Below, piece after piece: positions 2,347-32,883 of a stretch of 35,790 nucleotides of DNA. Numbering within the stretch: the stretch's first letter is position 1; each line of letters begins with the position of its first letter. This stretch comes from an uncultured bacterium (GTDB lineage Bacteria > Oederibacteriota > PGYV01 > Palsa-1178), in the NCBI GenBank assembly GCA_937889595.1, contig CALAOR010000093.1, positions 1 through 35,790 of the forward strand, read 5' to 3'. The position numbers and the translations under genes are program-made. Below the pieces are notes generated by a model. The model ran no database searches and was not told the origin of the DNA. It worked only from the letters and a program-made list of their open reading frames with translations.

Positions 2347-5300
2347 TTATTTTACAACCGCGATTTTTATCTTTTTGGTCTGCGTGTGCCCGTCGTCGCC
2401 GCGGGCTTCCACTACGGCTATATATACGCCCGCGGAGCATGTTTTGCCCGAGTCATTGCGCAGGTTCCACTTTGCTTTGCCTGTTTCAAGCCTGGTCGTT
2501 ATCGTTAGAACGTGGTCCCCTGTCATATTTAATATTACGACATCGGCAAACCCGGGCTTTGGCGCGGCCCCTCCAAAATCCCACCTTATTTCTATGCCGT
2601 CGCCTGTGTGGTAACATGGATTTGGCACAGCGCTTAAGTTACCCAGGTACTGGTTTCCTTCCTTAAGTATCATGATCGATTTTGCGGTTGTTATTACCCT
2701 CCCGCTTTCTGTGCTGACCGTGATAACAAATTCATACACCCCCGGGTTAACAGCCACGCCAAAACTATTCTTGCCGTCCCACGCCATAGAATCCGCGGCA
2801 TTGGGTCCGTACGATATCGAAACCAGCGTGTTATTGTCCTTTCCTATCACGATCATATCAGGCGCGCTTAATACCACGGGCTGCGTTGAATCTTTGCTGT
2901 AATCCCTTATCTGCCTGACCAGTTCCCCGGCTGCATTATATATGGTAAGCTCCACATAATTGTTGCTCTGGATCATGGTAATATCTTTTGTCAGTGTCAG
3001 CACATGCCCGTATGTATCTATCTGTTCTATTTTTATATAATACGGCCCCGATGCGGCCTTCTGTCCGGCGTCAGTTGTGCCGTCCCAGGTAAATACCGTG
3101 TTATGCTGCCCGAGGGTCTGCGGAGTCTCGACCCCCGCAAATAAAATACTGAGCACCGAGTTCTGCCCCATAACACTTGCGTCAATATTCCCGGTTACAT
3201 TAAAGTTAACTTCCGTCATGGCGTTTGATGAAGGCGCGGTTATTATGTGCTTCACCACCTCGCCGGCCTCATTGAGCACTGAAATAATGATTGCATAAGG
3301 GTAAAGCTGTGACGTCGGCGTTATGGTCGGCGTGTAAGTGTATGTGGAAGTCTGGGTTATAGTCGGGGTTGCCGTACTGGTAAATGTGGGCGTGAAAGTC
3401 GGCGTGTGCGTCGGCGTCACAGTACGAGTAAACGTAGACGTGTAAGTCGGCGTGAAAGTCGGGGTTACGGTAAAACTCGGCGTTGCGGTATAAGTCGGCG
3501 TATTTGTAAATGTCGGCGTGTCTGTAGGGGTGATCGTTGGGGTATTTATCGGCGTGTCTGTATATGTCGGCGTGTTGGTCCTCGTGTATGTAACTGTCGG
3601 GGTTGCGGTATAAGTCGGAGTTGCGGTTGAAGTGTCGGTAAATGTAAAGGTCGGGGTATCAGTCGGGGTCGCGGTATAAGTGAAGGTATATGTCGGCGTT
3701 GCGGTGCTTGTATATGTGGCGGTAAAGGTCGGCGTCGCTGTATAAGTCGGGGTAAAAGTCGGCGTAGACGTCGGGGTATTTGACGATATAGTGATGGTAT
3801 CGGTAAATGTTGAAGTATACGTAGGCGTCGCAGTGAAAGTGGGGGTGTCGGTACGTGTCGCGGTCGGCGTGAATGTAGACGTAAAAGTCGGCGTGGCTGT
3901 AAAAGTCGGCGTGGCAGTCGGCGTGTCTGTCGGCGTGTTTGTCGGGGTATCAGTAGGCGTACTTGTGGGTGTGTATGTCGGAGTATAAGTCGGCGTAAAG
4001 GTCTTTGTCGGCGTATCAGTCGGCGTAAAGGTCGGCGTATCAGTCGGCGTAAATGTCCGCGTAAATGTCGGCGTGTATGTGGGTGTGTTTGTCTTTGTAA
4101 ATGTCGGCGTCACGGTGTAAGTAGGGGTGAAAGTCGGCGAACCGCAGCCCATTATGTTCAGCGATGTCTTGTTTGAATAAACCGGGAAATTCGCATTGCT
4201 GTCTATCATAGCCTGGTTTATAGCCGGGTTAGCCAGACAGTTTGCCGTCCCCCACCATGTAAAAGACCCGCTTGTGTTTGATATGTTGTTTCCCAAATCC
4301 CAGCGAAGCGGAGTTCCGGGTGTGCAGCCCCCGCATCCGACGTAATTCACGCTGATAGGCACGGTATCATTGATAAACGCGCCGCCGACAACACGCTGTT
4401 CATAAACTGTAAAGTTATCATAGGTATCCTTGACGCTTCCGTCCGAGCCGACCTGTTCATTGACTCCCGGCCTCCAGTCAGTAGATGTGCCTGTCCCATC
4501 GCATTTCCAGTCCGGAGTGCCCAGGTTCGTATCAGCATAATTAATATCCCAAGTTGATGGCTCGGGATCGCCCCTCGCCCATATTCTTGCCTGTATCTGC
4601 TGTCCGCCAGCGATATTGGTTACCTGTATCCTTATCCTGTACCATTTATTGGCAGATACCGCGCCTACAGTCGGCGTGACACCCGTGCCAGCGGGCCCTT
4701 TGCCGTCTCCGCACCAATCATTTGGTAAACCAACGCCGCCAGCGCATTTCTGATAAAATAAAAACCCTGGTCCGGGGTAGGTGTCTATGGAAGCTACTAT
4801 GCCCAAACTTCTCTCTGCCGCGCCTGTGAGGCCGTTGGTCCTGATTATGATCTGCGCATCAGCGCCTGCAAATGTTCCGGGATTTATAAAAAAATCCGAA
4901 ACTATTATTCCCGAACAGAACTGATCGGAAACGTTTGTGGAACTGCCGTCATCCAAAACAAGTCCGGGGTAATTCCCATTTTGAGCGGCTCCTGTGATTA
5001 TTTTATCGCCCGTGCCGCAGGCGTCGCTTATCACCCATGTGCCGTTGCCGCCGGTGCCCGACTTGAATTTCCAGCCAAGGGGGGGCGATGATGTATATGT
5101 AGCGGCAGTATTATTATCCAGCGCCTGGTAATTCCTCAGGGCATAACCATTCACGCTGTATGAAAGATAGTATGTTATCGGGTCCCCGACATTTACAGAA
5201 TTTGCGCTCTGGTCCTTGTATATATTTATCGCGGGTTGGCCGACTGTAGCCGCAACAGTGCTTGTCTGGTCCGTCATTCCATCCATCTTAGCTGTGGCTG

Positions 5301-6192
5301 TATTGGGATACGACGGGGTTCCTGACGGCGTAGTCACCATCTGAAGAAGCATCCAGACTGTGCCATCTGCCCTGCCAGGCGCGTTTATCCTGGGAGGAAA
5401 TGTCCAGGTAAATGTCCCTGAAAAGGCGCCCACAGCCGGGCCCGTTACTGTTCCCGCAGGCGGCCCGGGTATTGACATTGGTCCGGCTGACAAAAGCTGT
5501 AAATTCCCTCCGCCCGGTATGGAATCGATTATCTGAAAACCGGAACCATTCGCGTAATTATAATCAACAGAGTAAAGTATTTTATCGCCTGCCACCTGAA
5601 GAACGCCTTCATATCTTTTTGCTATGTTAAATGATGTTGGCGGAGCCGATATGGGCAAAGTTATTATATTGGATGAGCACAATGGCAAACCCATCCAATC
5701 ACTGGCATTCAGGTTTGAATATTTTGCCGCGACATGAAGGTATAAAGCGGATATGTTGCAACCTGTAAAATCTTCAGCCTTTGGGATATGGACAGTATAA
5801 GTTTGTACCACTACCTTGCTTTGATTACCGCCTCCGCAGTCGGCGCAGTTTGTGAGGCCGCCTATGTCCGCAAAAAGCGCGCCCATTTCAGTAGGCATAT
5901 TGACCAACGGTATGTCAATAATTGGGGGTACAGGCTTGTTATTACCGTACACAACAAAAACCTGTCCGCCTGAACCCGGAGTCTGGCGTGTTGCAAACGA
6001 ACTTACGGCAATATCCATGTAAGTAGTGTTATTAACACCCACGCACATGGACACACTTATGGAAACCACATCGCCGAAACTTGGATTGGGAGGAATCATA
6101 GTGACAGATAATATATTGGGATCAGCATATGAAAAAGAAAATAACAATAAGGAAATTACCGTGAAAAGCCCAACCCGGTACAGTCGTTTCAT
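2347..6192 (-). CDS. Giant secreted surface protein with DUF11-like, Thr-Pro stalk and FlgD-Ig domains
   Basis: The product is 1281 aa with a signal peptide ([23 protein letters not shown]). Residues about 190-320 resemble a DUF11 conserved-repeat domain ([19 protein letters not shown]). A second DUF11-like unit begins about 322 ([21 protein letters not shown]) and seems to resume about 604 ([22 protein letters not shown]) after about 245 residues of a Cys-containing, LamG-like beta sandwich. Residues about 686-961 are an almost pure T-P-T-x stalk. Residues about 962-1281 hold FlgD-like Ig units with WDG motifs ([21 protein letters not shown]), then AVPNP and the end KKIKIAVVK. An AGGAG precedes the ATG. 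It is expected to be exported and displayed or anchored by its C-terminus; its ligand is unknown. Its C-terminus is clearly homologous to the partial gene at 35242. Confidence 0.88.
3312..4136 (-). repeat. Low-complexity Thr-Pro coding repeat (stalk 1)
   Basis: About 275 codons alternate Thr with another residue and place Pro at every second gap (T-P-T-x). On the plus strand this gives runs of GTCGGCGT-like hexamers. Thr codons vary among ACA, ACT, ACC and ACG, so the pattern is kept at protein level and is not only fresh slippage. Confidence 0.95.
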
Positions 6193-6753: not shown

Positions 6754-9700
6754 TCAACGTACTATTGCTATTTTCTTTTTCACCGTTTTATTGTCAGCCT
6801 GAATTACAAATAAATATATCCCATTTGCCGCTTGTCTGCCAAAGTCATTTTTGCCATCCCAAATTATCCTGTTAATTCCCGTCGCTGTATTCTGTGCGCT
6901 CAAATCATGCGACCACACCTGCCTGCCGTTAATATCCATGATAATAAAATGCACCTCTTGCTGTGCCGCAAGCGGAAATCGGATGGTTGTTTCGCCTTTG
7001 CTTGGATTGGGATAAGAGTAAACTTCCTTTTCAGACAGCGTTTGATACGTTATGGTAGGCGTCGGGGTCGGAGTGCTTTTCGCGGTGGAAAGTATTCCCA
7101 CGCTGTTGTTGCTGCTGCCCGAACCTGACGCGCAATCATATTTCATGACAGAAGCAAGTCCTCCATTTGCACCATCGCCGTAAGCAACGTACGGTATATT
7201 ATTATATACATTTAAAGAAGTAGAACCCCCAACTTCTGATGCAAATCCAGCATTACCTACCGTTGACCAACTGCTGACATTATCGTATACCTTAACCGTA
7301 ATTTTATTGCTATTATTCCAATCGAGATAACTTACATATTGAGTACCGTTGTTATCAACAAACAATGAAATATATTGCCCGCCTCCATCTGATGCGCCTG
7401 ATGCGCCTTCAACATCCCAATTTGTTTTTGTGCTGTTAAGTTTATTAACCATTACTTTGTACCCATTTCCAGCATCAATATATGCGACATATAAACTGCC
7501 TGTTTCTGAATATAATGAAATGTTTTGGACCGCACCTGATGAGAAATAATTATTGCCAATAATTCCCCAGCCTGTTATCGAGTTGTATCCGATCACACTT
7601 ATTTTGTTATTTCCAGCATCCTGGTATGCAAGATACGGTGTTCCCGTATTGTCGATAACCATTGATATATTATGAGCATCGTTATTTACTCCTGTATTTC
7701 CAACCGTGATCCATCCGGATACATATTTTTTAACAGTAAGCATATTTGCATTATTTGTATCACTATAAGCCACGTATGGGGTGCATGTGCTGTCATCCAT
7801 GGCAAAAGCAAAAAGCGCACAACTACTGCCAATTCCCAGATTTCCAAACGGAGAATGCCAAGCTAAATTATAATATTCTAATACGGTTAAATACGAACTA
7901 CTTCCATCATTAAATGCAATATATGTATTGCCTCCGCAATTATGAATTGCTGTTCCAGAACCACAAAACTGATAATTAATATTTCCTACCTGCGTCCAAC
8001 CCAAACCGGTATTATTTGTATCATATACCTTGACCGTCACTCCAGTTGATGAATCATAATATGAAACATATAATTTTCCGTTACTATCCATATATGATGA
8101 AACATATCCTGCCGACCCTGCGGATATGCCTCCATGGTCCACATATTGCCAAACACATGTTGTTGCCGTAGTTGTTGCTGTGGGGGTCGCTGTCGGCGTT
8201 GGCTGCGGACAGGCGCACAGGTCCTTGTATTTCCATATCTCTGTACCAGAAGTGTTCACGCCCGACAGCAGTATGTTTGCTTGAAGCGCGTAGTATTTTA
8301 TATCGTACCCATAGTATGAGTATACAGAGAAGTTGTTTGAACCTGAATTAAAACTATTATCCGGGCTGCCATCGCTAAGGTTATATCTCCATACAATCAT
8401 TTTGGGATCGCCTTGTTGATTTGACTGTCCGGCTATCAGCACCCTCTGGCAGTTGTCAACATCAACAGCATAGCCAACATAATTTTTGTCACCCGGATCA
8501 TATGTATTATAACCACCGTTAAAGTTTGTATCCAAGAATCCACTGCTTAAAACTTTCCAGATTGCCATACCCCAGTCAGGCGCTTTTCCCGTGACTATAA
8601 AACCATCTCCTGGCAGCATTTTCATGCCGAAACCTGTTGAATAACTACCTATCAGCTGTGTTACTATTCCTCCGCCGTTAAAACTGCTGTCTATCACCCC
8701 CGCGCTGGTCAGCCTGGCATAGAACATGCGCGTATCGACGCTGTTCTGGCTATATCCTGTTATGATTAATCTTCCGAGCGAGTCTATACCGAGATCCGAT
8801 GCAAAATCATTACTGCCCGGGGCCGTGATATTATCCAGCACCACATACCCGGTACCGGATCCAAAATTTGCGGTGTCCAGCGTTCCATTAGGCAGGAACC
8901 TCCATACAACCGCATCCCAGTTCCCTGATGTGTTATAATGGTAACCCGCAACAATAATTCTATCCTGACTGTCTATTGCCACACTTTGGCCATAAGTACT
9001 GCCGCTGTCCCCGCCCAACCCGTTCACAGGAGTATTCCATAGTATAGAATTGCCATTTCCCATGATTTTCCAAACCTGCATCACCGCACCTGTTTGGGCA
9101 CCTCCTCCCCCCGCTATTGTTCCCGTTGTTATTACCATATCCCCATTTGAATCAATTGCTACGCTGCTCTTGCTAAATACAGACCCCCACGGGATATTGA
9201 AATATCCGGGTGTTCCTGAAAAATTAAAAGTCGTATCATGCGAACCATTCATCAGTATTCTCTCCACACCGAATCCGTTACTTGTCTGACCGGTCACAAC
9301 TATCCTGCCGCTCGAATCCAGAACAAGATCATTGCCATTAGTTGTGCCATTCACGGTCAACTCAAGCGTAACGCAAGGCGTGGCAGCAGTTGTGAATGTG
9401 GGAGTTGGTGTCAGCGTTGGTGTCAGCGTTGGTGTCAGCGTTGGTGTCAGCGTTGCGGTTATTGTTGCCGTATTAGTATAGGTCGATGACAACGTGTTTG
9501 TCGGGCTGAAGCAACCGTACCCGGTCTCATGGCCGCCGCGGTCTACATTGGATATTATCAGTCTGTCAAGCCCAGATCCTGCCGGGATGCCATAAATGCC
9601 GTACGTGTTCCCAAAATACGATCCGAGTTCAAATGTATTGGTCGCCGACGTAAAAACATTCACGGAAGAACTTATACTTCCTATGTTTGCGCCGTCCATA

Positions 9701-12700
9701 TATAAATTATAAGCTGCGCCGTTCCAATCAATACTAAAATGATGCCATCCCGTGGCCGGATAACTCGGCGATGGCGGATACAGGAAAATTTGTTGTGTCC
9801 CGATTTTAAAATTGATCCATGCGCCGTTCCACGGGTCCCAGGCGCTGTCGGTGCTGGTTTTAAGCTGGAGCATTATACTATCGGGCTGGCCCTCTGTGGT
9901 TCCCCGGGTTATGGGTATAAGGTCGTGGAATCCCGTTGTTTGCTGGGGTGGCATATAAACCCAGAATTCAATTGTAAAACCGGTTACACCGGTCAAACCG
10001 GCCAGTGTACTTTCGAGTGACGCCGGGAACCTGTCATAATTATTACCCGATATATCGTTATACCAGGAATAATTTCCATACTTGACTGGATATACGGGGA
10101 AAGTCTGGTATTGCCCGCCATTGCCCACAGCAGCTAAATTATGCCCATTTCCACTGGAATCATTCCTGTTATTTTCAAATTCGTAAATAGCTATAGCATG
10201 CGAATCATAACCCCCGCCGTAACCGCAGGTACATGACGGTGTGATGGTTATTGTCCTCGTCTGTGTTATAGTCGGCGTGGGTGTATAGGTAGGCGTAATT
10301 GTCGGCGTGGCTGATTTTGTCGGAAATGGGGTTCTTGTCCCGGTGCACGTGCGTGTATTTGTTATGGTAAATGTCGACGTTATTGTCTTTGTAACAGTCC
10401 GCGTTGGCGTTGCTGTAATAGATGGCGTTGCCGTACGGGTCGGAGTTATTGTGAATGTCGGGGTTATGGTCTTTGTCCGCGTATAGGTGCCCGTCGTCGT
10501 GCGTGTCGGGGTTATTGTAAATGTCGGTGTTATAGTCCTTGTCCTCGTATAGGTGCCCGTCGTCGTGCGTGTCGGGGTTATCGTGAATGTGGGTGTTATG
10601 GTCTTTGTTTGTGTATAAGTAGGTGTTGCTGTTCGTGTATATGTCATCGTAAAAGTCTGTGTAATTGTCCTGGTTACCGTATAAGTTGGAGTAGCCGTTA
10701 ACGTATTAGTTACTGTAAATGTAGGAGTACTCGTCGGCGTAACGGTAGCTGTTGGTGTTGCGGTTTTTGTCACTGTAAATGTCGGCGTAACAGTAAAAGT
10801 CGCTGTTATTGTGTAAGTCGGGGTTATGGTTTTAGTCCATGTTCCAGTCGGTGTCCTTGTAAATGTGCGTGTTCCAGTCATTGTTATAGTGGGGGTATTT
10901 GTTCTGGTTGCTGTCCTTGTGACTGTAGGTGTACTTGACGGTGTATATGTACGAGTTGCAGTAGGTGTAATAGTAGGGGTTATTGTCCTGGTTCCTGTTT
11001 TCGTCACAGTAGCAGATACCGTAGGTGTGCCGGTCTTAGTTGCAGTAAAAGTTGAGGTTCCAGTTCTTGTTGGGCTTAATGACTTTGTTGGCGTAAAAGT
11101 CGGGCTAATTGTTAATGTAGGAGTTACCGTCTTTGTGACCGTAAATGTTGGAGTTACTGTTTGGGTGTTTGTTTGGGTTATAGTATATGTTGGTGTGTTC
11201 GTATTTGTTATTGTATAAGTCGGCGTCATTGTGCCAGTGATTGTTTTTGTAGCTGTAAAAGTGGGGGTTGATGTAATGGTAAAAGTCGGTGTTCCTGTAT
11301 TTGTAACTGTATAGGTGGGTGTGTTTGTGGCCGTAAAGGTGGGGGTACTTGTTGAGGTTGGTGTGCTTGTATTTGTCTGTGTTGGCGTAATTGTTTTAGT
11401 TATTGTAAGAGTACTTGTAACCGAACTGGTTATTGACGGTGTCGCAGTTGGGGAAAAAGTAGGTGTTGCCGTATTTGTCCCGGTATAAGTTGAGGTGCTT
11501 GATATCGTAAAAGTTGGTGTAAAGGTCATTGTTAGGGACATTGTTATGGTAATAGTTATGGTAGGAGTTATACTTGGAGTTGAGGTAGGGATAGGCGGAC
11601 ATAAATCTTCCCTCCATACGCCCGCATGAACATAACTTTGAGCATAGTTTTCTAAAATCAATCCCGCCCAAAGATATCCATTTGTGCAATCAGGAAAAAA
11701 TGAAGCAATACCATTTGGTAACCCGGTATCGTAATTACTCCAGGTTCCATTTTGATATTTCCTTAAAAAATCCCCAGGATTGCCGGTATAAGGCACGCCA
11801 TAACCTCTGCCACCTAGCCCGTCAGGATGTGTTCCAAATCCCCAACCTGAAACAAATAGAATGGGGCCACTGGAGCAACAGCAGACTTTTTCTATTTTTG
11901 AAACACAACCCACTGACGAAGCAGGATTTCCCATATCTATAACAGCGGGAATTGTTTTATCATAGTACCAGATTTCTCCTCCAGAACTGACAAAATAGAA
12001 ATTATTGCCATTATTAGTTTCACAATCAAAAGTTAAATCTACGATATCACTATCCCCTGACGGATCGGGTGATGATTCAGTATATATGTTTGTAAAACTG
12101 GGTCCGCTGGAATCGTACAAAAAGACTCCACCAATCGAATAGAGTTTATCAATGGAAGTTACGTAAAAATAATTTGCGTTAGCTGGCGATTGATAGATTT
12201 TATAATAAAAATAACCTACAGCTGTATTGAGACTGCCAGGAACTGCGCGCCAATTATTACCCCCATCAAAGGTTTCACCTATAAAATTAGCGGTAGCGGC
12301 TAAAATATGATTTGAATTAGTTCTGTCAATAACCATTGAAAACGGAAATCTATCTGTTGTTGAATTTAACGAAGGGCTAGAAGCTTGATAATTTTTAAAA
12401 CTCACTCCTGGTGATGTTACTTGTGTAAATGGCGGCCCTGAAAGAACAGAATTATATGTGGATATGTGTGGACTGTAACCATAAAGTCCTTCATCTGCTA
12501 CCCATAGGTTATTACTAATTGGTGTAATTTTTAAATCCTGTATATTGTATGTTTCCCCAATGTTACCACCTATTGGTAACAATGTAAGCATTGTATTTGA
12601 GAGTCCTGTGGCTCTATATATACCATTATTAAACCACTCACGAAAACCTGTTCCTACAAAGAGTGTGCCTGCTGTCATTGTTATAGCAGTAACTTCGTCG

Positions 12701-12801
12701 GTATCTAACTCCGTTCCCAGGCTTACATCTTGCCAAGCATTTAATGGCATATAGAATATGACAAATATAATGAAAAATAATATACTAATATTTTTTTTCA
12801 T
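6754..12801 (-). CDS. 2015-aa secreted multidomain surface protein (LamG, delta-60, Thr-Pro stalks)
   Basis: A signal peptide (MKKNISILFFIIFVIFYMPLNA) is followed by a propeller-like N-terminal region to about residue 398. Residues about 400-854 are a Thr-rich stalk. Residues about 860-1095 resemble a LamG/concanavalin-type domain (IAIYEFENNRNDSSGNGHNL, GFTIEFWVYMP, WHHFSIDWNG, YNLYMDG). A short TLTP stalk follows. Residues about 1142-1400 carry delta-60-type repeats (VAIDSQDRIIVAGY, NGTLDTANFGSG). Residues about 1410-1800 carry repeats of the form TPYLAYQD...ITVKVYD...WSTVGNAGF, a likely beta propeller. The end (YPNPSKGETTIRF, IIWDGKNDFG, NGIYLFVIQAD, KKKIAIVR) is a FlgD/type-A-sorting-like domain. 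Its ATG overlaps the previous gene's stop by one base (TAATG). It is likely displayed on the surface; adhesion or glycan binding is plausible but unproven. Confidence 0.88.
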   Translation of the reverse strand: MKKNISILFFIIFVIFYMPLNAWQDVSLGTELDTDEVTAITMTAGTLFVGTGFREWFNNGIYRATGLSNTMLTLLPIGGNIGETYNIQDLKITPISNNLWVADEGLYGYSPHISTYNSVLSGPPFTQVTSPGVSFKNYQASSPSLNSTTDRFPFSMVIDRTNSNHILAATANFIGETFDGGNNWRAVPGSLNTAVGYFYYKIYQSPANANYFYVTSIDKLYSIGGVFLYDSSGPSFTNIYTESSPDPSGDSDIVDLTFDCETNNGNNFYFVSSGGEIWYYDKTIPAVIDMGNPASSVGCVSKIEKVCCCSSGPILFVSGWGFGTHPDGLGGRGYGVPYTGNPGDFLRKYQNGTWSNYDTGLPNGIASFFPDCTNGYLWAGLILENYAQSYVHAGVWREDLCPPIPTSTPSITPTITITITMSLTMTFTPTFTISSTSTYTGTNTATPTFSPTATPSITSSVTSTLTITKTITPTQTNTSTPTSTSTPTFTATNTPTYTVTNTGTPTFTITSTPTFTATKTITGTMTPTYTITNTNTPTYTITQTNTQTVTPTFTVTKTVTPTLTISPTFTPTKSLSPTRTGTSTFTATKTGTPTVSATVTKTGTRTITPTITPTATRTYTPSSTPTVTRTATRTNTPTITMTGTRTFTRTPTGTWTKTITPTYTITATFTVTPTFTVTKTATPTATVTPTSTPTFTVTNTLTATPTYTVTRTITQTFTMTYTRTATPTYTQTKTITPTFTITPTRTTTGTYTRTRTITPTFTITPTRTTTGTYTRTKTITPTFTITPTRTATPSITATPTRTVTKTITSTFTITNTRTCTGTRTPFPTKSATPTITPTYTPTPTITQTRTITITPSCTCGYGGGYDSHAIAIYEFENNRNDSSGNGHNLAAVGNGGQYQTFPVYPVKYGNYSWYNDISGNNYDRFPASLESTLAGLTGVTGFTIEFWVYMPPQQTTGFHDLIPITRGTTEGQPDSIMLQLKTSTDSAWDPWNGAWINFKIGTQQIFLYPPSPSYPATGWHHFSIDWNGAAYNLYMDGANIGSISSSVNVFTSATNTFELGSYFGNTYGIYGIPAGSGLDRLIISNVDRGGHETGYGCFSPTNTLSSTYTNTATITATLTPTLTPTLTPTLTPTPTFTTAATPCVTLELTVNGTTNGNDLVLDSSGRIVVTGQTSNGFGVERILMNGSHDTTFNFSGTPGYFNIPWGSVFSKSSVAIDSNGDMVITTGTIAGGGGAQTGAVMQVWKIMGNGNSILWNTPVNGLGGDSGSTYGQSVAIDSQDRIIVAGYHYNTSGNWDAVVWRFLPNGTLDTANFGSGTGYVVLDNITAPGSNDFASDLGIDSLGRLIITGYSQNSVDTRMFYARLTSAGVIDSSFNGGGIVTQLIGSYSTGFGMKMLPGDGFIVTGKAPDWGMAIWKVLSSGFLDTNFNGGYNTYDPGDKNYVGYAVDVDNCQRVLIAGQSNQQGDPKMIVWRYNLSDGSPDNSFNSGSNNFSVYSYYGYDIKYYALQANILLSGVNTSGTEIWKYKDLCACPQPTPTATPTATTTATTCVWQYVDHGGISAGSAGYVSSYMDSNGKLYVSYYDSSTGVTVKVYDTNNTGLGWTQVGNINYQFCGSGTAIHNCGGNTYIAFNDGSSSYLTVLEYYNLAWHSPFGNLGIGSSCALFAFAMDDSTCTPYVAYSDTNNANMLTVKKYVSGWITVGNTGVNNDAHNISMVIDNTGTPYLAYQDAGNNKISVIGYNSITGWGIIGNNYFSSGAVQNISLYSETGSLYVAYIDAGNGYKVMVNKLNSTKTNWDVEGASGASDGGGQYISLFVDNNGTQYVSYLDWNNSNKITVKVYDNVSSWSTVGNAGFASEVGGSTSLNVYNNIPYVAYGDGANGGLASVMKYDCASGSGSSNNSVGILSTAKSTPTPTPTITYQTLSEKEVYSYPNPSKGETTIRFPLAAQQEVHFIIMDINGRQVWSHDLSAQNTATGINRIIWDGKNDFGRQAANGIYLFVIQADNKTVKKKIAIVR
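9404..9451 (-). repeat. Perfect 12-bp tandem repeat, four copies
   Basis: The plus-strand unit GTTGGTGTCAGC occurs four times in a row without change, encoding TLTP repeats in the short stalk between the LamG-like and delta-60 domains. Identical copies suggest recent slippage and possible length variation between strains. Confidence 0.95.
10240..11605 (-). repeat. Low-complexity Thr-rich coding repeat (stalk 2)
   Basis: About 455 codons alternate Thr with Pro, Ile, Phe, Tyr, Arg, Lys, Val, Gly and others. It is less strictly T-P-T-x than the stalk at 3312-4136 and richer in Lys and Arg (TRTKT, TKTITPT). Confidence 0.93.
10438..10635 (-). repeat. 66-bp higher-order repeat inside stalk 2
   Basis: A 22-residue unit (TITPTFTITPTRTTTGTYTR plus two residues) occurs about three times with few base changes, the third copy diverging at its end. 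It is a local duplication within the Thr stalk. Confidence 0.8.
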
Positions 12802-17380: not shown

Positions 17381-17453
17381 GTAGTGGCCGAATATCATTC
17401 GGCCATCCGTGGCTCGCTGGCCCGCGGGTGGCGGCATGATATGCCGCCACTAC
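17381..17453. repeat. Pair of oppositely oriented short palindromic repeats
   Basis: GTAGTGGCCGAATATCATTC plus GGCC (17381-17404) and GGCGGCAT-gat-ATGCCGCC plus ACTAC (17430-17453) face each other, both with their GTAG/CTAC tags outward. The second matches 2192-2215. They occupy the argS-DUF2723 gap and could fold in RNA and weaken read-through. Confidence 0.75.
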
Positions 17454-21276: not shown

Positions 21277-21317
21277 TACTTCATTATTTTACAAACTTCC
21301 CGGAGGTATTGCAGGAA

Positions 21318-21569
21318 ATGCCGAATTTAAAAGCTTCAATTAAGGATCTAAGGAAGACAGCCAAAAGGACCGAGAGAAGAAAAGGCGTGGTATCCAAGGT
21401 CCGCAACATATTGAAAAAGATCAGGACGGTAACGCCTGAAGAAGCGAAAAAAATGCTTCCCGACGTATATTCGACGGTTGATAAAGCAGTGCAGGCAGGC
21501 ATACTCAAGAAAAATACAGGCGACAGGTATAAAGGAAGAGCAGCAAAGAAAACCCTCGTCAAAAAGTAA
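21318..21569 (+). CDS. rpsT: 30S ribosomal protein S20
   Basis: The product is 83 aa, basic and helical, of normal S20 length. It begins MPNLKASIKDLRKTAKRTER and contains the conserved ILKKI, YSTVDKAVQAGILKKNTGDR and GRAAKKTLVKK blocks; S20 binds 16S rRNA early in 30S assembly. I chose the ATG at 21318, since S20 proteins start MPN or MAN and since CGGAGG and CAGGA lie upstream; the in-frame TTG at 21309 is unlikely. It is the only plus-strand gene of the window and is monocistronic, with its own promoter and terminator. Its position beside holA is common in bacteria. Confidence 0.95.
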   Translation: MPNLKASIKDLRKTAKRTERRKGVVSKVRNILKKIRTVTPEEAKKMLPDVYSTVDKAVQAGILKKNTGDRYKGRAAKKTLVKK

Positions 21570-21587
21570 AATTCCCTAAATAACAAA

Positions 21588-21613
21588 ACCCGCGGAGACC
21601 CCGCGGGTTTTTG
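21588..21613 (+). terminator. Rho-independent terminator of rpsT
   Basis: ACCCGCGG-agacc-CCGCGGGT forms an 8-bp GC-rich stem followed by TTTTTGTGTTTT, 18 bases after the rpsT stop. Confidence 0.92.
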
Positions 21614-21745
21614 TGTTTTAATGGCTGTCAATAAGGTTCTGTAATTATTCACGGTTGCGTGAACTGTCTTTTCGTACGTGTTCATCCATTCCTTATTAAG
21701 GCGCGGGCCCGCGACCACAAAGACGTTTGTGCCTGTTACAACGAC

Positions 21746-21789
21746 TTCGTAGTCGCACCCTCTACGATCCATCGGGGTGCGCTTGCGGG
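21746..21789. repeat. 44-bp dispersed repeat, copy 1
   Basis: It starts TTCGTAGTCGCACCCTCTAC and ends TGCGGG, with CGCACCC...GGGTGCG able to pair. It matches 21921-21964 at 42 of 44 positions. GCGCGGGCCCGCGACCAC at 21701 begins a looser upstream part shared with copy 2. Confidence 0.9.
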
Positions 21790-21920
21790 AATTAAATCAT
21801 TGTATCACACGGTTGTGTGGGCGATCTAAACGTTTGCTTGTTTAGTTTCCTCATCTAGGCGCGGGCCGATAAGACGCAGGCCCGCGACTACACGACCCTG
21901 CCGTGTGTAAAATCCGCGAT

Positions 21921-21964
21921 TTCGTAGTCGCACCCTCTACGATCCACCGGGGTGCGCCTGCGGG
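21921..21964. repeat. 44-bp dispersed repeat, copy 2
   Basis: It is a direct repeat of 21746-21789. The upstream part GCGCGGGCC...CCCGCGACTAC (21860-21891) resembles 21701-21718 but has an insertion. The stretch 21614-21976 between rpsT and holA contains these repeats and no credible gene. Confidence 0.9.
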
Positions 21965-21976
21965 CTATATTGCCTT

Positions 21977-22963
21977 TTATCCTTCCAGCCTTAAAAATAT
22001 ATTCGCCAGCATGATGGTCAGTATTGTCTTTGCCTTGTCCCTGTTTGACAGTTTTATGCTGCTGTCTGCTTCCTTGATTATGGCGACTATATCCGCATAC
22101 GGCACTTTCGCGAAGTTCTTCGCCTGTATTTTTGCCTTGTCCATATCCTTGACATAGGCGAATTTAAAGATTTTCTTAAATTCGCCTGTTGACAGGAAAT
22201 ACCTCATGATGTACAGGCTCTTTATCTTGTAAAACATGAAACCCAGCATCTGTTCGGGCGCTGTCCCGGGATATATTTTTTCAAAGACGAACATCGCCCT
22301 TTTTTCGTCTTTCGCGGCTATTGCTTCGGTGAGTTCATCGAGGTTGTATTCCCTGTTCACGCCCCTCGTTTCCGAAAAATCCGCCATTTCTATTTCCGCC
22401 TTTTCGCCTATTAAAAGCAGTATCTTGTCTATCTCGTTTTTTACGGCGGCCGGCTCGCCGTTGGCTTCGCTTATTATGTAATCCAGGACATCCGGATTTA
22501 TGGCCTTTTTCTGCTCCAAAAGGTAATTTTCAATCCATGTCTTTATGTCGGCGGACTTTGAAGATGACAGGTTTATTATGTTGGCTGACGGGATGTCCAT
22601 ATCCAGGACTTTTTTTGCTTCCTGGGAGGTTGTAAGAAGCATGACCGTGAATTCGGGTATTAAAGGCAGGAAAGAGGTGAGTTTTTCAAGCTCCTCTTTT
22701 TTGAGTTTTGTAAATTCCCGGACCAGTATGAACTTTTTCTCTGAAAAAAACGGCTGGGTTTTGGCGGATTCTATTATGGAGGATATTTCGCTTACATCCT
22801 CTTTATCGGAAAGATCATAGGTTTCCATGGATGTTTCGTCAAGCTTGCCCGCCAGGAACACCTCAAGAAGTTCCTTGATGAATTCCCCCCGGAAAAAATC
22901 ATCATCCCCGGAGAGAACGTAAAAAGGATAAAGTTTGGCGGTTTTTATGAAGTTGGCCCGCAC
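21977..22963 (-). CDS. holA: DNA polymerase III subunit delta
   Basis: The product is 328 aa, normal for HolA, the clamp-loader subunit that opens the beta clamp. It shows the family's N-terminal layout: PFYVLSGDDDFFRGEFIKEL (as in YLLHGEEPFL), then METYDLSDKE, PFFSEKKFILVREF and FTVMLLTTSQEAKK. The C-terminal collar region includes EQMLGFMFYKIKSLYIMRYF and ANIFLRLEG. The start is a GTG at 22963 preceded by AGGGA. It lies six bases after the 189-aa gene and closes a leuS-lptE-X-holA transcript, an order close to that of enterobacteria. Confidence 0.92.
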   Translation of the reverse strand: MRANFIKTAKLYPFYVLSGDDDFFRGEFIKELLEVFLAGKLDETSMETYDLSDKEDVSEISSIIESAKTQPFFSEKKFILVREFTKLKKEELEKLTSFLPLIPEFTVMLLTTSQEAKKVLDMDIPSANIINLSSSKSADIKTWIENYLLEQKKAINPDVLDYIISEANGEPAAVKNEIDKILLLIGEKAEIEMADFSETRGVNREYNLDELTEAIAAKDEKRAMFVFEKIYPGTAPEQMLGFMFYKIKSLYIMRYFLSTGEFKKIFKFAYVKDMDKAKIQAKNFAKVPYADIVAIIKEADSSIKLSNRDKAKTILTIMLANIFLRLEG

Positions 22964-26567: not shown

Positions 26568-26601
26568 TTTATGTTCCTCCGGAACGATGCAATGTTTTTT
26601 A

Positions 26602-26645
26602 GTTTAAAAGCCTGCTTTGAGAGGGGGGCTTGTCCCACTCTCTAC
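26602..26645. repeat. Direct repeat flanking the large element, left copy
   Basis: GTTTAAAAGCCTGC, a stem-like GAGGGGGGCTTGTCCCACTC, then TCTAC. It is 44 bases and nearly the same as 26851-26893. It lies between leuS and the large repeat element. Confidence 0.8.
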
Positions 26646-26852
26646 TGTCGGAAAACCCTATAAAACCATGAAATTCTTTATCGTGTCCGGTGTGGATGAA
26701 ATTTTTCTATGGCCTGTGCGCCACTAAAACCATTTATAATACAAGCTTGCCATGAACCCGAGCTCCGCGAGTGGTTCATGGCGCACAATCCATAGAAAAA
26801 TTTCATCCGCACCGGACACGACCTATCATTAAGGCCGTGTACCATTCGCAGT
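26644..26852. repeat. Large dispersed inverted-repeat element, copy 1, with nested hairpin
   Basis: Arms 26682-26712 and 26790-26820 (31 bases each, starting CGTGTCCGGTG and ending CACCGGACACG) pair almost fully, and the stem extends with GTGCGC/GCGCAC. Compared with copy 2 at 30479, this copy holds about 36 extra bases around CCATGAACC...GGTTCATGG (26750-26781), a 9-bp-stem hairpin in the loop. It carries no coding frame. Confidence 0.92.
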
Positions 26853-26893
26853 TTAAAAGCCTGCGTTTTAGAGGGGGCAAGCCCCCTCTCTAC
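26851..26893. repeat. Direct repeat flanking the large element, right copy
   Basis: GTTTAAAAGCCTGC, then a clean stem GAGGGGG-caag-CCCCCTC and TCTAC. It bounds the large element on the side of the CorC-type gene and has the same stem-plus-CTAC form as the small palindromes elsewhere in the window. Confidence 0.8.
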
Positions 26894-30348: not shown

Positions 30349-30475
30349 GATATTTTACCCAAAAAGTCCTTTTGGGAACAAGGAAAAACATGGTTTACAG
30401 TCGGAACAATGATCCAAAATAAAATCGGGGTTTCTTTCGCATCCGGGTGTGTAAGTTTTCCTGCGGAATCATCTT

Positions 30476-30686
30476 GATACTGTCGGAATACCCTATAAAA
30501 CCATGAAATTCTTTATCGTGTCCGGTGCGGATGAAATTTTTCTATGGCCTGTGCGCCACTAAAACCCTTATAATACAAGCGCACAATCCATAGAAAAATT
30601 TTATCCGCACCGGACACGACTTATCATTAAGGCCATGTACCATTCGCAGTAGCTTAAGGTACATGGAATGCTTTTCCGGCAGTATC
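30476..30686. repeat. Large dispersed inverted-repeat element, copy 2, with short terminal inverted repeats
   Basis: Bases 30479-30650 match 26644-26852 closely apart from the loop insertion. The 31-base arms are 30517-30547 and 30588-30618, one mismatch. Outside them GATACTGTCGGAA (30476-30488) and TTCCGGCAGTATC (30674-30686) form a 13-base terminal inverted repeat with one mismatch, and CATGTACC/GGTACATG pair inside the right end. The right end touches the stop codon of the polygalacturonase gene. The rest of the gap 30276-30475 shows only the operon promoter. Confidence 0.88.
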
Positions 30687-32883
30687 ATCTTAGTATTATA
30701 AGCTCACTTGGTTTAGCCGCGGACTTTTTGCCTTCCGTTGATACGCCGGATATTACGGCATAATATATCCCCGCAGCAAGGGTGCCCACCTTCCCGGCGG
30801 GAATTACGAACGTGCTTTTCCCAGAAAAAACGCCCGTGAAGTTTTCCTCAGCGACACGCCTGTACGCAACCGTATATATGCGTATCCTGATGCTTTCGGC
30901 CGTACCTGTAATGAACGCCTGCATACTTAAGCCCCCATCAGCGGGCATATACGGGTTCGGGTACATCAGCGCGGCTGTTATTTCAAATCCGGCTGCCGGT
31001 GAAACAGTTTGCGTAGGGGAAACTGTAACGGTATTTGTTTGTATGGTTGTCCAGGTGCCTGTCGGCGAAGCTGTAAACGTTGTCACGGATGTCAATGTGA
31101 ATGTAACAGCCGGCGTGGCGGAATATGTGCTGACCGGGGTATTACTTTTGGTTATTGACGGTACAGCCGTGGTTGTCTGCGTCGCAGAGGCTGTTATTGT
31201 CTGTGTGCCGGTAAAAACAGCAGATGCAGTCCGGGTAACGGTGCCTGTAAATTGCATAGTTCCGGTTAAAGTGGCCGTCAAGCCCGGCGTTTTGCTTTCC
31301 GTAACCGTTGCCGTGAGAACCTGCGTTGCGGTAAGAAGCGGTGTGTATGTAATTGTGCTTATCTGTGTTTTCGTCATGGTATTTATTGTTGTAGATGTAG
31401 TTGTCACTGCAACCGTGGCGGAAAATGTCGGAGTAAATGTCCCTGTAAATGACCGCGTAATAGTCGGCGTTGACGTAACCGTTGTTGTAAATGTAAGAAC
31501 GGTTGCGGGTGTAAATGTCCCGGTAGGCGTGGCAGTTGTTGTCCGCGTGGCAGTTATTGTCCGCGTATAGGTTATTGTCGCAGTCCGCGTAAATGTCACT
31601 ATGGTAGTGGCCGTAGGCGTGTTTGTCGAACCGCAGGCCGGGTAATATATTGTGCCCGCGTCAAAGGCCCCCACATTGACCGGCGGCTGTGCCCCGTCAA
31701 CCCGGCACGTGCATGTGATGGTGACTCCCCTTGCGTGGTGAAATTCAAAATTAACTCCGCTGGGCCCGGTCACCTTGACATTATCCAGCAGGATATTCGT
31801 CATGGGCGCTTCAGTCACGGCCCACATAATACCCGGGCTCTTGGCTCCGCTGGCAGCTGTGGAAGCCGTAATATTCCTGAGGGTGATATTGCTCCAGTAT
31901 GGCGTTGTGCTTGTGACGGATTGCGTATCATCCGCCGTGGGAGGCAGTGATGATGGATTTGGATAAAAACTTGTCAGAAAAAACGGGTAAAGCATGATCC
32001 CTGTCATGGTTATATTTTGATAGGTCAGGTTGTTGTTTATCCCTCCGCGGTCCCGGCCGGTCTTCCATCGGATACCGTACTGGGTTCCGTTAAATACGCA
32101 GTTGTCCACCAGCAGGTTGCTCACCCCTGCCTGTGTGTAGCCGCCGATTGACAACCCGTGTCCTGTGCCAAATGAACAGTTGCGTATGATAACATTTGAA
32201 GTCGGGTCCGACGACCCGCCCAGCTGGATCACATCGTCCCCTCCGCTGATGTAGCAGTTTTCAATAAGGATATTATTGCCGCGCAGGTCAAACCCGTCTG
32301 TGTTGGGCGACGGCCACGCAGCTGTGATGGACAAACCCGAGGCGTAGACATTGGAAGATGTGCCTAATATCTGGATGTGAAATTTCGGGGAATCCTGCAC
32401 CGCAATGCCTGTCAGGGTCACGCCCGTGCAGCCTGAAAGATATATCATGGCCGGCGGCCGCCTTTCGACGCCGGTGGAGTTAAAATCAGCCCACCATTTC
32501 GCGCCCTGTCCGTCCATCACACCCGCGCCGGTTATGGAAATATTGGACAAATTTTTTCCGTAAAGGAAATACGCGTTATCGGTAAAAGTGTTCATGGGAA
32601 GCATTCTCAGGATGGCGCCGGATGCTATCTGGAAATTCATATTACTTTTCAGCGTTATGGGCCCGCCGCTCAAAAAAGTACCCGCAGGCACCAGCACCGT
32701 GTCCCCGCTTGCGGCCGCATTTACGGCGGCCTGTATGGCCGCGACATTGTCGGCGCTGGCGGTTGACGCGTTATATGGGGCGGAAGTAATGTTGATTATC
32801 GCGGCGTATGACGCGCCAAAAAAAACAAACATAAAGAAAAACAAAACAGCCGCAATTTTTTTCGTTAAAAAATAATTTTTCAT
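30685..32883 (-). CDS. GH28 polygalacturonase with Thr stalk and C-terminal sorting-like domain
   Basis: The product is 732 aa from the ATG at 32883, which begins a signal peptide (KKIAAVLFFFMFVFFGASYA); longer starts add a non-signal extension. Residues about 25-400 form a right-handed beta helix with all GH28 landmarks: NTDGFDLRG (about 195), GDDVIQLGG (about 214), GHGLSIGG (about 241) and RWKTGRDRGG (about 272), covering the catalytic Asp triad, the His and the Arg/Lys substrate contacts. It should hydrolyse alpha-1,4-galacturonan or a related polymer outside the cell. Residues about 420-625 are Thr-rich stalk. The C-terminus (MYPNPYMPADGGLSMQAF, AAGIYYAVISG, SELIILR) matches the 608-aa protein. 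This suggests a surface-held enzyme. A good promoter lies upstream. Confidence 0.93.
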   Translation of the reverse strand: MKNYFLTKKIAAVLFFFMFVFFGASYAAIINITSAPYNASTASADNVAAIQAAVNAAASGDTVLVPAGTFLSGGPITLKSNMNFQIASGAILRMLPMNTFTDNAYFLYGKNLSNISITGAGVMDGQGAKWWADFNSTGVERRPPAMIYLSGCTGVTLTGIAVQDSPKFHIQILGTSSNVYASGLSITAAWPSPNTDGFDLRGNNILIENCYISGGDDVIQLGGSSDPTSNVIIRNCSFGTGHGLSIGGYTQAGVSNLLVDNCVFNGTQYGIRWKTGRDRGGINNNLTYQNITMTGIMLYPFFLTSFYPNPSSLPPTADDTQSVTSTTPYWSNITLRNITASTAASGAKSPGIMWAVTEAPMTNILLDNVKVTGPSGVNFEFHHARGVTITCTCRVDGAQPPVNVGAFDAGTIYYPACGSTNTPTATTIVTFTRTATITYTRTITATRTTTATPTGTFTPATVLTFTTTVTSTPTITRSFTGTFTPTFSATVAVTTTSTTINTMTKTQISTITYTPLLTATQVLTATVTESKTPGLTATLTGTMQFTGTVTRTASAVFTGTQTITASATQTTTAVPSITKSNTPVSTYSATPAVTFTLTSVTTFTASPTGTWTTIQTNTVTVSPTQTVSPAAGFEITAALMYPNPYMPADGGLSMQAFITGTAESIRIRIYTVAYRRVAEENFTGVFSGKSTFVIPAGKVGTLAAGIYYAVISGVSTEGKKSAAKPSELIILR

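Follow-up and report, generated by a model that had tools for sequence, protein, structure and literature searches.

What kind of element is represented by two long hairpins, about 3.8 kb apart and nearly identical, in the genome of an uncultured bacterium? They lie in the window, i.e., the whole stretch of 35,790 nucleotides that was analyzed, and the initial annotation offered three readings of them: a MITE-like element, a REP-type palindrome or a structured RNA. Both copies were found again, with 96-97% identity in the parts common to them, and we refer to the repeated unit as element A. Each copy sits between two minus-strand genes and, as annotated, next to gene ends. Copy 1 is flanked by a CNNM/CorC gene and by leuS, and copy 2 abuts the stop codon of a GH28 gene, such that the terminal GA of the element completes the TGA.

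The inverted repeat, originally given as 31 bp, is real, but its arms are longer: in both copies a 32-bp outer stem is followed by a 2x2 mismatch (CC/AT) and a 7-bp inner stem. The full pairing is thus 26681-26721 with 26781-26821 in copy 1, and 30516-30556 with 30579-30619 in copy 2. Compared with shuffled sequences, folding is highly significant (z = -12.1 for copy 1 and -16.5 for copy 2), and none of 200 shuffles folded equally well. The extra bases of copy 1, about 36 with a hairpin of their own, are located at 26747-26782, where a 10-bp stem is formed by GCCATGAACC/GGTTCATGGC. Copy 1 is also flanked on both sides by another dispersed palindromic repeat. The features of the two copies, including terminal inverted repeats (TIRs) and target-site duplications (TSDs), are as follows.

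30476-30686, plus strand: intact 211-bp copy 2 of element A, which aligns with the rest of the family and has a TIR at each end and a 5-bp TSD
30471-30475, no strand: TSD ATCTT, left of copy 2, identical to 30687-30691
30687-30691, no strand: TSD ATCTT, right of copy 2, identical to 30471-30475
30476-30490, plus strand: left TIR of copy 2, GATACTGTCGGAATA
30672-30686, minus strand: right TIR of copy 2, GATACTGCCGGAAAA as read on the minus strand
30516-30547, plus strand: left arm of the copy 2 outer stem, 32 bp
30588-30619, plus strand: right arm of the copy 2 outer stem, with one G.T wobble
30548-30549, plus strand: left half of the conserved 2x2 mismatch CC/AT in copy 2 (right half, 30586-30587), seen in nearly all copies
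30557-30578, plus strand: apical loop of copy 2, with the invariant TATAATA at 30569-30575 (invariant alignment columns)
30633-30670, plus strand: palindromic module II in copy 2, CCATGTACC..GGTACATGG, absent from shorter copies and also occurring elsewhere
26643-26852, plus strand: element A copy 1, truncated (left TIR without its first bases, right TIR missing)
26681-26712, plus strand: left arm of the copy 1 outer stem
26790-26821, plus strand: right arm of the copy 1 outer stem
26747-26782, plus strand: 36-bp palindromic module I, located in the copy 1 apical loop, absent from copy 2 and found in other contexts in relatives
26601-26645, plus strand: left copy of the other dispersed palindromic repeat, AGTTTAAAAGCCTGC..GAGAGGGGG..CTCTCTAC, which is represented once at the empty site of G001
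26850-26893, plus strand: right copy of that dispersed repeat

A dispersed family with transposon ends

Element A is present in about 40 copies in its own genome (G000; 3.42 Mb, 93 contigs), about 30 in a congener (G001) and about 27 in a genome of the same family (G003); these numbers are approximate and threshold-dependent, and since copies were gathered by hairpin similarity, they favor intact hairpins. All genomes compared are MAGs, with assembly gaps (NN) within several hairpins. A covariance model detected the hairpin in these three among 45 genomes of the FCPU426 phylum, and not in the 42 others, which include G002, from a third genus of the same family. In a loop-pattern search, the loop was carried by MAGs labeled 'candidate division FCPU426 bacterium', bog_1181 and palsa_1178; no match to element A was found among the viral contigs, plasmids and phages searched.

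Intact copies are about 150-315 bp long and encode nothing. A short open frame, 19 codons on one strand of some copies (the loop strand, defined below), is interrupted by early stops in others. The standard order is TIR, spacer, outer stem of 26-33 bp, mismatch loop, short inner stem, TATAATA loop, the mirror parts and a second TIR. The 15-bp TIRs correspond to GAKACTGTCGGAAAA, a sequence with about 220 matches in G000 versus 29 for a reversed control. The two ends differ, in that one reads GATACTGTCGGAAAACCCTATAAAACCATG and the other GATACTGTCGGAAAAG; element A therefore has a direction, and we define as the loop strand the one that reads CTAAAACCCTTATAATA.

Exact 5-bp TSDs are found in 23 of the 56 copies with both ends recognizable, whereas shuffled pairings yield a mean of 1.5 and a maximum of 6; 22 of the 39 such copies from G000 and G001 have one. 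No flank matches of 4 bp or of 7-8 bp were detected among these 56 copies. The leuS/CNNM gap orthologous to the site of copy 1 contains one copy of the dispersed repeat and no element in G001; in G003 the element is likewise absent from this gap, and the two flanking matches are merely 27 bp apart. The genes that flank element A barely overlap among the three genomes, and most insertions are thus lineage-specific. Taken together, ends, TSDs, empty site and copy number provide good support for element A being a MITE, as the initial annotation had considered. A further possibility, that one hairpin was simply copied by segmental duplication within the window, would account for the proximity and near-identity of the two copies, but it is refuted by the dispersed copies with TSDs of their own and by the empty orthologous site; neither is the family confined to two copies, nor do its ends fail to recur. 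In being short, non-coding and intergenic, with TIRs, TSDs, a long stem-loop and IS-related ends, element A resembles other bacterial MITEs such as Correia/NEMIS, ERIC, RUP and Chunjie.

A candidate source of the transposition activity is found in G003. At locus L221, an IS1182-family transposase of 532 residues has GATAGTGTCGAAAAA and GATACCGTCGAAAAA on its sides, and a truncated relative of it, at L224, lies between GGTACTGTCGGAAAA and GGTACTGTCGGAGAA; these ends resemble those of element A. The IS1182-family transposases score 313 (L221) and 366 bits against NF033551, for which the cut-off is 270. No TSD was detected around L221 or L224, and no complete IS1182 element was found with exact element A ends and a TSD. 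The only IS1182 in G000 has ends GAGTCTGTCTCAAAA, with 12 of 15 matches to those of element A. Element A, unlike the IS1182 family, encodes nothing. From the similarity of the ends, we infer that element A was probably mobilized by an IS1182-family DDE transposase. The DDE transposase of G000, on contig C32, was rejected as the mobilizer because its ends differ. As a separate observation, L221, L223 (contig C130) and L224 (contig C136) of G003 contain fragments that resemble Rhs C-termini (YGHQNPVR.DPDG core), and behind each fragment come a small gene and an IS1182-family transposase. These units are arranged head to tail between element-A-like ends, and resemble transposase-associated Rhs tip cassettes.

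IS200/IS605 elements, REPs and REPINs are moved by Y1 transposases and have neither TIRs nor target duplications. Element A has in common with them a hairpin in DNA whose polarity is strand-specific at replication forks, but it differs from IS200/IS605 in its 15-bp TIRs and 5-bp TSDs, which do not fit a peel-and-paste movement. That element A is a hairpin of this type, mobilized by a Y1 (HUH) transposase that acts on the lagging-strand template, is very improbable, even though a hairpin with replication-linked orientation is the hallmark of IS200/IS605 (PMC5371812, PMC6006769) and Y1_Tnp genes are present. These genes also occur in genomes without element A, and G001 has one weak match only; given this lack of association, a Y1 transposase was rejected as the mobilizer. 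In addition, the hairpin of element A is far longer than a REP, and in the copies shown the foot of the stem lacks the GT[AG]G tetranucleotide (GTAG or GTGG) of RAYT-associated REP/REPIN hairpins. Of the three initial readings, the REP-type palindrome is the one that is not supported.

Conservation of the hairpin

Across an alignment of 34 diverse hairpins, standard pairs make up 98.3% of the paired cells, compared with 80.8% after shuffling and 37-49% in slid controls, and 21 of 26 stem pairs have changed on both sides. Between subtypes whole arms have been replaced, e.g., CGGATGAAATTTTTCTATGG, CGAACTTTAATTTTTCTATGG, CTGATAAGATTTTGACTCAGG and GGCGGGACTTTTTTAAG. The features kept through this turnover are the mismatch (CC/AT in most), GCGCC(A/G)CT and the TATAATA-like loop. 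The wholesale replacement of arms with pairing kept distinguishes element A from the MITEs mentioned above, and makes the hairpin itself the conserved unit. Gene conversion between the arms was rejected as the sole source of the pairing, since it should have eliminated the conserved mismatch.

The hairpin also outlasts the transposon ends. In the older subtype of G003, mean pairwise identity is 0.89-0.93 in the arms, 0.59-0.65 in the ends and 0.30-0.34 in the flanks; this pattern is favored by the collection of copies through their hairpins, and a search by ends yielded mostly a younger subtype with intact ends.

The structured RNA of the initial annotation is partly borne out, in that pairing is maintained by compensatory change. 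Such covariation is, nevertheless, equally expected of a DNA hairpin, and compensatory changes have also been reported for REPIN hairpins (PMC3116915). No Rfam family matched above its gathering threshold, and the sub-threshold matches were mostly to long hairpins of the miRNA type. Two other functions were rejected: an intrinsic terminator, because inspection revealed no U-tract directly after the long stem, and a promoter in the loop, because a promoter scan reported no promoter-like site there despite the TATAAT on the loop strand.

Orientation relative to replication

To assess orientation, GC skew on MAG contigs was used as a stand-in for replication direction, and gene calls were picks of the longest ORF rather than the output of a trained gene finder. 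Based on the flanking skew, 93 of the 95 copies have their loop strand on the G-poor strand (36:2 in G000, 30:0 in G001 and 27:0 in G003), and for one of the two exceptions the skew is 0.0. Context of 8-130 kb was available for 44 copies, and in 42 of these the loop strand is opposite to the major gene strand and to the GC skew; the two others are a truncated copy located where the skew is flat (contig C75, position 9926) and a copy on an 8-kb contig (C45). The G-rich strand is, by standard reasoning, the lagging-strand template. The loop strand is therefore predicted to serve as the leading-strand template, which is not the strand exposed at the fork. On the loop strand, G.T pairs outnumber A.C pairs (59:20 cells, 34:17 distinct), an asymmetry that is weak and points to the loop strand; as this strand would not be the exposed one, it counts against the reading that we favor below.

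Is this orientation a matter of replication or of transcription? Tandem gene pairs flank element A in one orientation by 60:2, according to simple ORF calls. This ratio, together with the compensatory changes, the location near the upstream stop codon in G003 and the known role of ERIC and Correia elements as RNA in intercistronic mRNA (PMC2229807, PMC2649163), would be consistent with a structured RNA, whose intercistronic hairpin might act on transcript processing or stability through RNase III or an exonuclease block. On most contigs, though, 80-98% of coding bases are on one strand, and genes that are so strongly one-stranded confound the orientations of transcription and replication. Where the two can be separated, orientation follows the GC skew rather than local genes: all 10 convergent and all 8 divergent sites agree with the skew (18/18), as does a copy between minority-strand genes (G003, contig C71, position 9204). 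The ratio of 60:2 was persuasive until gene strand and GC skew were separated in this way, and a sense-mRNA function was then rejected as the cause of the orientation. An RNA role explains the convergent and divergent sites less well than replication does; the wobble pairs favor the strand antisense to genes, and neither an Rfam family nor a U-tract after the stem was found. Thus, we regard a function in mRNA as unlikely. As an aside, on contigs C57, C64, C75 and C93 of G000, among others, a single strand carries 80-100% of the coding bases over tens of kilobases.

Does the polarity reside in the ends or in the interior? The ends of element A are shared by a second MITE family, B, which has 5-bp TSDs in several copies but a different interior, with multiple palindromes (GGGCAGCATGATATGCTGCCC..GGCCGAATATTATTCGGCC; G000 loci L061-L100). 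The orientation of family B is unbiased (8:11), as is that of another dispersed REP-like repeat (6:11). Because family B has the same ends without the bias, the polarity belongs to the interior of element A. In this respect element A differs from the MITEs compared above: 98% of copies have a fixed replication orientation tied to the interior, not to the ends. For BOX, RUP and SPRITE insertions the figure is 61-63% on the leading strand, mirroring coding bias (PMC3049150).

The fixed orientation would have arisen from replication-coupled insertion or from strand-specific selection. The reading that we favor, with a probability of roughly 0.6, is that element A is a MITE moved by an IS1182-family transposase, whose cargo hairpin, rather than its ends, sets the polarity relative to replication through recognition of one strand near the fork. 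Element A would be a non-autonomous DNA transposon with 15-bp ends and 5-bp target duplications, and its cargo a long hairpin, with an asymmetric mismatch and a loop that are both conserved, recognized on one particular strand. Either a host or transposition protein would couple insertion to fork direction, or copies facing the wrong way would be harmful and hence lost. Small palindromic modules would insert secondarily into the loop and near the right end. Recognition of the hairpin itself is favored by its conserved mismatch and loop and by its persistence once the ends have decayed; known fork-oriented transposons make fork-coupled insertion possible (PMC5371812).

Alternatively, element A might be a plain parasitic MITE, with its polarity due only to replication-coupled target choice, e.g., by a transposase bound to the beta clamp, and with no role of the hairpin after insertion. 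Replication-linked orientation is indeed known for Tn7 TnsE, IS200/IS605 and other IS families (PMC5371812), and the TSDs and ends of element A are standard. We nonetheless consider this explanation rather doubtful, as family B is unbiased with the same ends and TSDs, the G003 hairpin is kept while ends and TSDs decay, and mismatch and loop persist through complete turnover of the arms. Tn7 makes a 5-bp target duplication, as element A does; no similarity between their ends was noted. The TnsE pathway of Tn7 resembles element A in its replication-fork-linked orientation (PMC5371812). Also conceivable, if tentative, is that the hairpin is a strand-specific DNA signal, effective only in one direction relative to the fork, that spread as a MITE and was kept by the host after its ends decayed; it could serve, for example, as a landing site for a fork protein or a single-strand-binding protein.

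Fork-sensing transposases are a known cause of replication-linked orientation, whereas here orientation tracks the cargo hairpin and not the ends. The unbiased sister MITE, with the same ends and TSDs, thus offers a natural means of asking whether insertion or selection determines orientation. The same contrast can also be used to ask if a long DNA hairpin, asymmetric in its loop, is recognized on a single strand at the fork.

Nested modules and other repeats

The extra hairpin of copy 1 had been interpreted as a second small element or variable module, and it does correspond to a dispersed palindrome that is also found without element A. Module I recurs at the same position in other copies (e.g., loci L008, L022, L026 and L184-L186), and its palindrome is also present at other sites in G001 and G003, among them the interior of a third repeat, whose ends are GTCATTGCGAGGAGC. 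There it neighbors a sister palindrome, CCATGTACC..GGTACATGG, which is module II of copy 2, located near the right end of the element. In its mosaic of modules, its variable inserts within the structure and its MITE-like ends, element A resembles BOX of Streptococcus pneumoniae. At loci L225-L232 and L240 of G001, a repeat ending GTCATTGCGAGGAGC..GCTCCTCGCAATGAC carries the same two palindromic modules as element A.

The window contains further repeats. A 23-bp palindrome, GTGGCGGCATRATATGCCGCCAC, is near-identical at 2190-2212 and 17428-17450, and several such copies are found in the genome. At the start of the contig, positions 1-300 and 427-726 constitute a 300-bp direct duplication of 91% identity. 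A 65-bp direct repeat (21742-21806 and 21917-21981; 83% identical) lies near the boundary of the ORFs at 21284-21772 and 21977-22963. Lastly, two very large ORFs (2347-6192 and 6754-12801, minus strand; 1281 and 2015 residues) contain extended tracts of short degenerate repeats, which are T-P-T-like when read on the coding strand.
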